Shown here one piece after another: positions 9,097 through 24,913 of a stretch of 32,957 nt of DNA (position 1 is the stretch's first letter; every line of letters starts with the position of its first letter). The notes beneath the pieces are model-generated. The model made no database searches and was not told the origin of the DNA. It saw only the letters and a program-made list of their open reading frames with translations. Both the position numbers and the translations under genes were made by a program. The stretch covers positions 1 to 32,957 of the forward strand of contig JAOPVX010000401.1 of NCBI GenBank assembly GCA_025965975.1, written 5' to 3'. Origin of the DNA: Mycobacterium sp. (GTDB lineage Bacteria > Actinomycetota > Actinomycetes > Mycobacteriales > Mycobacteriaceae).

Positions 9097-9517
9097 CTAG
9101 CCGAAACTACGCGGCAAATTGGATATGTTGGGCGGCGCCGTCGTCGTCACCGGGGGCGGCGCCATATTCGGTACAGAAACTTGTGCCGGAGGCTGCCATG
9201 GCGTATCGGCGAGCTGGCTTCCCCCGGCGGCGCATGGCAGCCGTTGTCCCCCGACCCCCAGACACCGCCCGTCGATTCACAACACCACCGCTCGTGGTCG
9301 AGCACATCTTCGGTGGTGTACTGGGGCGGGTGGTTGTTCATGCAGAAGTCGTATGCGCCGATGTCCCACGCGGTGTTGTTGCCCCCGTTGTTGGGTCGGC
9401 AGCGGCAATGCTGGGGTAGCCGACACCGATGGTGGAGTATCCGACACCGATGGTGGAGTATCCGACCGGGATTGCGCCCGCGGCGACGAGGGAGCAAAGC
9501 CGGTAGTTGTTTTTCGT
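9097..9517 (-). pseudogene. Decayed small secreted Cys-rich protein
   Basis: Three pieces of one secreted protein can be read in different frames. The N-terminal piece is a signal peptide (KNNYRLCSLVAAGAIP, then GVGYSTI repeats, then PSIAAADP). The middle is NTAWDIGAYDFCMNNHPP followed by ERWCCESTGGVWGSG and CHAPPG, the C...CC...C pattern of small mycobacterial exported proteins. The tail is DTPWQPPAQVSVPNMAPPP ending in LPRSFG and a stop at 9097. Adding one G to the G5 run at 9382-9386 and one to the G5 run at 9221-9225 (minus strand) joins all three. The expected ATG is ACG at 9515-9517, five bases after the TetR stop. Either a real pseudogene or partly a sequencing artefact. Confidence 0.7.
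9420..9461. repeat. Two perfect 21-base tandem copies
   Basis: Two identical 21-base units (9420-9440 and 9441-9461) lie in the signal-peptide part of the decayed secreted gene and encode GVGYSTI twice on the minus strand. A third, diverged unit (GVGYPSI) adjoins on the low-coordinate side, so the array grew by in-frame duplication. Confidence 0.85.
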
Positions 9518-22767: not shown

Positions 22768-23469
22768 ATGGACAGTGGAGCGGCTTCGCCCCGGGTGCTC
22801 GTAGTGGACGACGACCCCGACGTGCTCGCGTCCCTCGAGCGTGGCCTGCGGCTGTCCGGATTTGACGTGGCGACGGCCGTCGACGGCGCCGAGGCGCTGC
22901 GCAGCGCCACCGAGACCCGGCCCGACGCGATCGTGCTCGACATCAACATGCCGGTACTTGACGGCGTCAGCGTGGTGACCGCGCTGCGGGCGATGGACAA
23001 CGACGTGCCGGTCTGCGTGCTCTCGGCACGAAGCTCCGTCGACGACCGGGTCGCCGGGCTGGAGGCGGGGGCCGACGACTATCTGGTCAAGCCGTTCGTG
23101 CTGGCCGAGTTGGTGGCGCGGGTCAAGGCGTTGCTGCGCAGGCGAGGTGCGACGGCGACGTTCTCGTCGGAGACCATCACGGTCGGCCCGCTGGAGGTGG
23201 ACATCCCTGGCAGGCGTGCCCGCGTCAACGGCGCCGACGTCGACCTGACCAAGCGAGAATTCGACCTGCTCGCGGTGCTCGCCGAGCACAAGACCGCGGT
23301 GCTGTCCCGCGCCCAGCTGCTTGAGCTGGTGTGGGGCTACGACTTCGCCGCTGACACCAACGTCGTCGACGTGTTCATCGGCTACTTGCGCCGCAAGTTG
23401 GAGGCCGGCGGTGCGCCGCGGCTGCTGCACACCGTTCGCGGCGTGGGGTTTGTCCTGAGGACGCAGTGA
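22768..23469 (+). CDS. prrA: Two-component response regulator PrrA
   Basis: A 233-residue OmpR-family regulator. The receiver domain has the acidic pocket DDDP (14-17), the phosphoacceptor Asp58 in VLDINMP, and the conserved YLVKPF lysine; the C-terminal winged helix ends in [20 protein letters not shown] then [15 protein letters not shown]. Length and position next to accD3/echA6-type genes agree with M. tuberculosis PrrA (about 236), part of the essential PrrAB system linked to early intracellular adaptation and, in M. smegmatis, to respiration and ammonium response. Its TGA overlaps the ATG of the first 32-base repeat unit that separates it from prrB. Confidence 0.95.
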
Positions 23470-23559
23470 TGAGCGCTCGCGCGAAGAACAAACAGGGATG
23501 ATGAGCGCTCGCGCGAAGAACAAATAGGGATGATGAGCGGTTGCGCGAATCAACGACAG
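23469..23559 (+). repeat. Three 32-base tandem units with overlapping minicistrons
   Basis: Units begin at 23469, 23501 and 23533. The first two differ at one base (CAG versus TAG); the third is diverged. Each begins with ATGAGCG. Unit 1 encodes [10 protein letters not shown] and its start overlaps the prrA stop (TGATG); its own TGA overlaps the ATG of unit 2 (MSARAKNK, stop TAG at 23525). A third short frame from 23530 (MMSGCANQRQTR) stops at 23568, four bases before prrB. The layout recalls the MIRU repeats between senX3 and regX3 of M. tuberculosis, but the sequence is different as far as I can recall. Confidence 0.85.
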
Positions 23560-23572
23560 ACGCGGTAGTCCG

Positions 23573-24913
23573 ATGAACCTGCTGTCGCGGATCTTCCGAC
23601 GCACACCCTCGCTGCGGGCCAGGGTGGTGGTCGCGACGGCCATCGGCGCCGCGATTCCCGTGCTCATCGTCGGCACGGTCGTTTGGGTCGGCATCACCGG
23701 TGACCGCAAGGAACGGCTGGACCGCAGGCTCGACGAGGCAGCGGGCTTCGCGATCCCGTTCCTACCGCGCGGGCTCGACGAGATCCCCAAGACGCCGAAC
23801 GACCCGGACGCCGTCATCACGGTGCGCAAGAACGGGCAGGTCACGTCCAACTCGAACGTGGTGCTGCCCGAGCTGCCTGCCGGCTACGAAGACACCTATG
23901 TCAACGGCGTGCGGTATCGCGTGCGCACAGTGGAGATCCGGGCGCCAGAGCCGATGGCGGTCGCCGTCGGTGACACCTACGACGCGACCATCGCCGACAC
24001 CAACAACCTGCACCGCAGGGTGATCATCATCTGTTTGTTCGCTATCGTCGCCTCGACCGTGTTCGGCTGGGTGCTGGCCGCATTCGCTGTGCGACCGTTC
24101 AAACAGCTGGCACGACAGACCAGTCAGATCGACGCGGGCGACGAACCACCCGATATCGAGGTGCGCGGCGCCACCGAGGCCGTCGAGATCGCAGACGCGG
24201 TCAAGGGCATGCTCGAACGGATCTGGGAAGAGCAGGGCCGCACCAAGGCGGCGCTCGCGTCAGCGCGCGACTTCTCCGCGGTGTCGGCGCACGAACTGCG
24301 CACCCCACTGACCGCGATGCGCACCAACCTCGAGGTGCTGTCCACCCTGGATCTGCCCGACGAACAACGCAAAGAGGTGGTCAACGACGTCATCCGCACC
24401 CAGTCGCGCATCGAGGCCACGCTGGGCGCACTGGAGCGGCTGGCGCAGGGCGAGCTGTCGACCTCCGATGACCACGTGCCGGTCGACATCACCGAACTGC
24501 TCGACCGCGCCGCGCACGACGCGATGCGGGTGTACCCCGATCTGGACGTGTCCCTGGTGCCTGCGCCGACGGTGATCATCGTCGGGCTGCCCGCTGGGCT
24601 TCGGCTGGCCGTCGACAACGCGATCGCCAACGCGGTCAAACACGGCGGGGCGACCAGGGTGCAGTTGTCGGCGGTCAGTTCGCGCGCCGGTGTGGAGATC
24701 GCGATCGACGACGACGGCGTTGGCATCCCCGAAGAAGAGCGCAAGGTGGTGTTCGACCGGTTCTCCCGCGGGTCGACGGCGTCGCACTCCGGCTCGGGGC
24801 TTGGCTTGGCGTTGGTCGCCCAGCAGGCCGAATTGCACGGCGGCACAGCCTCGTTGGAGGACAGCCCGCTGGGCGGAGCGCGGCTGCTGCTTCGGCTGCC
24901 CGGTCCTCGTTAA
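23573..24913 (+). CDS. prrB: Sensor histidine kinase PrrB
   Basis: A 446-residue membrane sensor kinase. Membrane spans at about 17-41 and 148-172 flank a periplasmic domain of about 105 residues; a HAMP domain follows (AVRPFKQLARQTSQIDAG). The H-box is FSAVSAHELRTPL with His240. The catalytic domain has the N-box AVDNAIANAVKHGG, the G1 box DDDGVGIP and the G2 box GSGLGLALV. It phosphorylates PrrA. Length equals M. tuberculosis PrrB (about 446). The 103-base spacer with repeat units separates it from prrA, an unusually long gap for this pair. Convergent with the FKBP gene, 8 bases away. Confidence 0.95.
   Translation: MNLLSRIFRRTPSLRARVVVATAIGAAIPVLIVGTVVWVGITGDRKERLDRRLDEAAGFAIPFLPRGLDEIPKTPNDPDAVITVRKNGQVTSNSNVVLPELPAGYEDTYVNGVRYRVRTVEIRAPEPMAVAVGDTYDATIADTNNLHRRVIIICLFAIVASTVFGWVLAAFAVRPFKQLARQTSQIDAGDEPPDIEVRGATEAVEIADAVKGMLERIWEEQGRTKAALASARDFSAVSAHELRTPLTAMRTNLEVLSTLDLPDEQRKEVVNDVIRTQSRIEATLGALERLAQGELSTSDDHVPVDITELLDRAAHDAMRVYPDLDVSLVPAPTVIIVGLPAGLRLAVDNAIANAVKHGGATRVQLSAVSSRAGVEIAIDDDGVGIPEEERKVVFDRFSRGSTASHSGSGLGLALVAQQAELHGGTASLEDSPLGGARLLLRLPGPR

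Follow-up and report, generated by a model that had tools for sequence, protein, structure and literature searches.

The prrA-prrB junction

The window, by which we mean the whole stretch of DNA analysed, consists of 32,957 bp of contig JAOPVX010000401.1 of Mycobacterium sp. (GCA_025965975.1), and the features of the prrA-prrB junction described from it lie on the plus strand. An OmpR-type response regulator with Response_reg and Trans_reg_C domains is encoded at 22768..23469, and a sensor histidine kinase with HAMP, HisKA and HATPase_c domains at 23573..24913. We take these to be prrA and prrB, names which were carried over from the original prediction; the domains themselves were confirmed using Pfam. 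Among its best 25 rows NCBIfam had no model at its cut-off for either product. The gap between the genes is filled by two near-identical 32-nt units (23467..23498 and 23499..23530) and by a decayed third (23531..23565) which reaches the old junction. Tandem Repeats Finder describes 23467-23549 as 2.6 copies with a period of 32 and 94% matches, and its score of 145 is the highest among the 27 rows reported for the window. Units 1 and 2 differ at a single base, C in the first and T in the second, and the change introduces an early TAG into unit 2; the period and the one-base difference noted in the original prediction are thereby confirmed. A 20-mer allowed ≤3 mismatches was matched twice in the window, against 0.03 matches expected. 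The window also contains a second tandem array at 9408-9466 (period 21, 2.8 copies, 92% matches, score 97). The Rfam model sR28 gave 20.3 bits over 23526-23593, below its cut-off of 39, and this was taken as chance.

Three minicistrons run through the array. Minicistron 1 (23469..23501, 10 codons) begins at an ATG having one base in common with the prrA stop, and minicistron 2 (23501..23527, 8 codons) at an ATG having one base in common with the stop of minicistron 1, both contacts being TGATG. Minicistron 3 (23533..23568, 11 codons, reading MSGCANQRQTR and stop) is followed by TCCG and the prrB ATG at 23573. Each GGGATGATG junction makes two in-frame ATGs available, at 23498 and 23501 for minicistron 2 and at 23530 and 23533 for minicistron 3. 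Since the TAG of unit 2 is located 2 nt upstream of the ATG at 23530 and 5 nt upstream of that at 23533, the step from minicistron 2 to minicistron 3 is adjacent, without overlap. The original prediction had described this layout, namely a 10-codon frame overlapping the prrA stop, an 8-codon frame overlapping the first, and a third short frame stopping four bases short of prrB, and all three frames are present as described.

History of the insertion site

No element is found at this junction in the four relatives nearest in prrB identity (L064 to L067), where the prrA TAG is followed by 3-5 nt and the ATG of prrB; in L064 it reads TAG-TCCG-ATG. In the window the element is inserted just ahead of TAGTCCG (23566..23572), the ancestral prrA stop and a spacer which matches that of L064. 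The prrA gene now stops at a TGA supplied by the element and the former prrA TAG is the stop of minicistron 3, so that the old stop-to-start distance to prrB survives. In L084 and L104 the last unit likewise ends, by eye, on the old TAG.

A total of 80 named relatives were retained from 254, and by pattern the core of the element is present at the prrA-prrB junction in nine of these 80, L101, with a decayed element start only, being counted as empty. A quick prrB tree with 81 rows requires seven changes between filled and empty, six of them forced by starred branches, which points to the element having been gained or lost here more than once. The 41-row clade of the slow growers contains none of the 10 filled rows.

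Four species (L073, L093, L105 and L111) carry at prrA-prrB a GC-rich second repeat (TGTGGGGG...GCGGGGGACG or similar) immediately preceding the core, possibly another mobile repeat nested with the element. A variant unit (ATGACGAGCGCTTGCGCGAGGAATC...) is found at the same junction in L086, in L089 and in L095, with 2 copies, a number hidden by an N run, and 3 copies, respectively.

A repeat family in the genome

A search for the 21-nt core with ≤3 mismatches located 110 places in the genome (7.44 Mb, 449 contigs) and a reversed-pattern control none. Fifty-five stretches were fetched around the listed places, which numbered 100 of the 110, so that up to 10 places were left out. After three clusters without a match at ≤2 mismatches had been dropped, 57 arrays were kept, including that of the window, with 1 to 6 units each and 27 of them single; since the left flanks are identical within each of the pairs L012/L014 and L051/L052, these are probably the halves of two arrays broken by contig ends, and the 57 may be 55. 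Contigs C24, C50, C5, C7 and C169 of this genome end in, or a few hundred bases from, arrays of the element; the assembly apparently breaks at the repeats, which renders the unit numbers at those ends uncertain.

The consensus of the 48 units which run 32 nt into the next ATG is ATGAGCGCTTGCGCGAAGAGC followed by a looser AGAGGGCACCG. The core is constant, and the tail is conserved at 54-79% per base until its invariant final G; the last 8-12 bases vary among loci and mostly agree inside one array. Outside family f2 (see below) the period of the other arrays is 24-33 nt. Neither the core nor its complement (five strings) matched the open-access literature, and among the matches listed from that literature no title or abstract start contained a description of the 32-nt repeat.

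Of the 57 arrays, 28 are not in the sense orientation between co-directional genes: six are antisense, six lie between divergent and six between convergent genes, five are inside predicted genes and five are at contig edges. Many of the 27 single copies have a TCGCGC core preceded by GCG or CAGCG and are located away from operon junctions; the single copies are perhaps a recent burst with a looser choice of site. At L021 (minus strand) six 30-nt units are found within a predicted gene, where the repeat seems to lengthen a protein in frame, and the opposite strand of that locus carries another array with a 24-nt period.

Insertion at other loci was followed by comparison with 1.6 of the 6.4 Mb of M. 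moriokaense GAS496, in which 14 array loci had both flanks. By eye, eight of these are empty, four hold one unit and two are ambiguous. The number of units is not the same in the two species, the ratios at the four occupied loci being 4:1, 3:1, 2:1 and 2:1 in favour of the present genome, with one genome per species. At L027 the insert is a clean one of 32 nt; for L036 and L039 the relatives have empty sites in the form of ATGA overlaps, into which exactly 96 and 64 nt, respectively, have been inserted. Inserts without a contact of the ATGA type occur at L024 and L035. A target-site duplication as the source of the locus-specific tails was suggested by L043 and L062, and by L104 compared with the empty L106, the tail matching the flank; the tails of L036 and L039 are missing from the empty sites, and such a duplication is therefore not general.

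Distribution in the genus and the order

The core was searched at ≤1 mismatch in 148 genomes of the genus and is present in 105; copy numbers range from 0 to 108 per genome, the control being 0 in all rows listed. The search of the genome and its relatives that had been proposed with the original prediction thus clearly dismisses the notion that the unit has no other copies. At an equal threshold the present genome has 108 copies, compared with 15-30 in its four nearest relatives. Among 31 named genomes, picked by the analyst from the 80 named loci, those of the slow-grower clade, 16 in number, have at most one copy each, and 8-82 copies are present in the other 15; a further eight named genomes, all outside that clade, contain 10 to 30.

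Across the order 46 of 200 genomes carry the core (the control pattern gave one match, in one genome of the 200). Eight genomes of other genera of the same family had none, and copies occur in families f2, f4, f6 and f12. Two of these other families, f12 and f6, show the same architecture: 11 of their 13 arrays lie between sense genes, and all 11 have the -4 overlap. In a genome of family f12, 19 units of 32 nt stand between two sense genes (L297). In family f2 (L307-L313) the core occurs within compound units of 81-98 nt, with GAGCGGAGCGAAT... wording ahead of it.

Placement and possible translational coupling

Placement was classified for 111 arrays: 57 from the present genome, 20 from G082, 21 from G037 and G020, and 13 from families f12 and f6; the seven f2 loci were left out. 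For G082, G037 and G020 listed exact-match places alone were used and for the other families a selection among the listed places, so that the sample favours intact copies. Gene borders are the predictions of the analyst's own gene finder, and an insertion meeting the upstream frame at its TGA was scored as an overlap. The p-values are nominal, since the arrays are not independent and certain flanks are common to loci from different genomes (e.g. the left flank of L271 and L284).

Between co-directional genes 75 arrays are in the sense and 9 in the antisense orientation (nominal p 4e-14). Among the 75 sense arrays, 54 have an upstream stop that overlaps the ATG of the element by 1 or 4 nt, compared with 184 of 926 ordinary co-directional pairs, and for 28 of these 54 the downstream start is predicted at exactly 32 nt past the ATG of the last unit. 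The 71 internal junctions of coupled arrays include 45 with an overlap of 4 nt and 15 with one of 1 nt. A period of 2 mod 3 was found for 26 of 31 coupled multi-unit arrays, compared with 12 of 28 others (nominal p 0.0013). A period of this kind allows minicistrons to be chained by ATGA or TGATG, but a fixed insert length of 32 nt would favour it by itself, which counts against reading it as a sign of coupling.

Early stops are found in one of 73 distinct units against 4.6 expected, a marginal deficit (101 of 2000 shuffles were as low), and the sole unit concerned is unit 2 of the window. Words resembling a Shine-Dalgarno sequence occur in 23 of 49 tails, 20.4 being expected (sd 3.0), and are thus not above shuffles.

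The Pfam scan covered 10 of the 16 listed coupled gene pairs, and in seven of the 10 the products are functional partners as judged by domain. These are a methylmalonyl-CoA mutase with a B12-binding protein, His_biosynth with PRA-CH, a cytochrome P450 with a ferredoxin, two pairs of acyl-CoA dehydrogenases, two FtsX permease parts, and a response regulator with a kinase. The other three comprise an acyltransferase with a polyketide cyclase, a CDP-alcohol phosphatidyltransferase with a DUF881 protein, and an unassigned protein with a solute-binding protein.

Interpretation

We consider it probable that the prrA-prrB array is a copy of a mobile minisatellite of about 32 nt which settles in the sense orientation at stop/start contacts and expands in tandem, and we infer that it may relay ribosomes. 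The element would land where the stop codon of one gene touches the start codon of its downstream neighbour, oriented with the operon, and tandem expansion would follow. Ribosomes which have finished prrA might then reinitiate along the minicistrons in turn and, the last of these stopping at the ancestral prrA stop, would still be 4 nt away from the prrB start, just as they were before the element was inserted. Provided that each step loses ribosomes, the number of units would lower the amount of PrrB and tune it against that of PrrA. That such a design is nearly harmless in operons may be the main reason why the family persists.

The chances are not far short of even that the array is instead a neutral passenger, in other words a selfish repeat which is tolerated in the sense orientation at stop/start contacts, is made harmless by its minicistrons and whose unit number has no regulatory role. 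This would suit a repeat that is widely spread with a patchy copy number (0 to 108), that has been amplified in the present genome relative to its four nearest relatives, and whose arrays occur in many unrelated operons and also outside operon junctions. MIRU have been read in this way in the accessible part of a review (PMC12548453), according to which they are seemingly mobile, insert at start codons with a -4 spacing and probably have little effect on expression. A neutral passenger predicts no effect of unit number, however, and in M. tuberculosis the length of the VNTR3239 (ETR-F) array between rnc and fpg1 goes with the level of the downstream fpg1 mRNA, as described in the available portion of PMC2734929. 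The latter observation implies that an effect on transcripts is also possible.

That the element is a true MIRU, i.e. a shortened and diverged branch of that family, strikes us as unlikely. The two have a common anatomy, the compound units of family f2 carry the element core, and when the consensus of the element was aligned locally with MIRU292 the score over the ATGA-bearing ends was 33 (shuffles 19.4, sd 4.5; 12 of 1000 as high), a weak similarity which may be the product of a shared constraint. Against this stand the unit of 32 nt, MIRU units being 40-100 bp in the portion of PMC2734929 available, and the results obtained with a MIRU motif, which is consistent with the 53-nt MIRU292 unit given in the accessible part of PMC7977185. 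Places matching this motif are 53-nt arrays ahead of ATG starts, and MIRU292 itself reads as an 18-codon frame from its ATGA. At ≤2 mismatches the motif was not found in the present genome, and the original prediction that the sequence seems to be unlike that of MIRU is upheld, with the weak alignment to MIRU292 as a qualification. At the same threshold it was matched in 76 of the 148 genomes of the genus (a control pattern in one of the 148), and the distribution is opposite to that of the element: the copy numbers of the two are negatively correlated (Spearman -0.73 over 148 genomes, with a p-value that is nominal because the genomes share ancestry), and at least five copies of both are present in 2 genomes, of the element only in 73, of MIRU only in 38 and of neither in 35. 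The MIRU between senX3 and regX3 is stated in the accessible part of PMC4213456 to be limited to M. leprae and the tuberculosis complex; the scope of that statement and that of the 76 genomes may differ.

A role in transcription, in which a promoter or binding site within the array drives prrB apart from prrA, appears improbable. In M. tuberculosis the gap between senX3 and regX3, which contains MIRU, is reported to have promoter activity (PMC4213456, accessible part), but a promoter leaves the chaining of stops and starts and the 2 mod 3 period unexplained. Least of all do we expect that folded units affect the stability or processing of the messenger, for although an 81-nt stretch of the L297 array folds better than 200 of 200 shuffles (z -2.74), 176 of 200 shuffles folded as well as or better than the window unit (z +1.00) and 102 of 200 as well as or better than the 121-nt junction.

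Comparison with MIRU and other known repeats

REP elements, which are associated with RAYT (Y1) transposases, are short, intergenic and present in many copies. The element described here resembles them in these three respects, and differs in that the window unit has no palindromic fold, that there is no association with Y1_Tnp and that the sense orientation is strong. Y1_Tnp was found in 27 of the 148 genomes of the genus, with 3 matches in the present genome; as a partner of the element the Y1 transposase was rejected, being present in 15 of 75 genomes with at least five copies of the element and in 12 of 73 with fewer (p 0.67).

The site occupied by the element is the contact seen in overlapping ATGA and TGATG gene pairs, which together with termination-reinitiation are an established subject (PMC6728339, accessible part); such ordinary pairs have no repeat, whereas the element multiplies the contact. 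In VNTR3239, as in the prrA-prrB array, variable tandem repeats fill a gap which amounts to a few bases in most other species, according to the available portion of PMC2734929. Its compound units of 55 and 79 bp differ from ours. The copy number of promoter repeats in M. tuberculosis varies within populations, as stated in the accessible part of PMC12817950.

The original prediction had likened the array to the MIRU between senX3 and regX3, and the likeness is supported by the anatomy and orientation of the two, by their insertion at stop/start contacts and by differences in copy number between species. The orientation of MIRU is that of the operon, and the element is also predominantly in the sense orientation (75 against 9). 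Like MIRU it is both interspersed and tandem, with 57 arrays of 1 to 6 units in the present genome. Insertion at start codons is seen for the element in the empty sites of L036, L039 and L027, the window insertion itself being at the prrA stop, 4 nt ahead of the prrB ATG. A small ORF coupled to its neighbours is described for MIRU in the accessible part of PMC12548453 and corresponds to the upstream overlaps of the element (54 of 75). Both are situated between the genes of a two-component pair (PMC4213456, accessible part), and the MIRU periods, 53 and 77 nt, leave a remainder of 2 when divided by 3, as does the 32 of the element. The two differ in these unit lengths, 32 nt against 53 or 77 (40-100 bp in the available portion of PMC2734929), and the element is found beyond its own genus in other families of the order. 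As its unit size is outside the MIRU range, we call it a new MIRU-type family and not MIRU.

A second, shorter and apparently sequence-distinct family with the anatomy of MIRU amounts to an independent natural replicate, and the features common to both, namely the stop/start contact, the sense orientation and the 2 mod 3 period, are for that reason probably functional. The element is common outside the slow-grower clade and occurs in other families, it provides empty and filled sites and pairs of differing copy number among related species, and it makes the idea of a ribosome relay testable. We suggest, as a speculation which we hold to be rather doubtful, that MIRU and the element represent two competing lineages within a single class of mobile DNA which is directed specifically at the points of translational coupling in actinobacterial operons. 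Their near-exclusion within one genus would then reflect competition for the same sites or the same mobilising machinery, and array length would be an inherited means of setting, in many species of several families, the stoichiometry of subunits and that of two-component partners.
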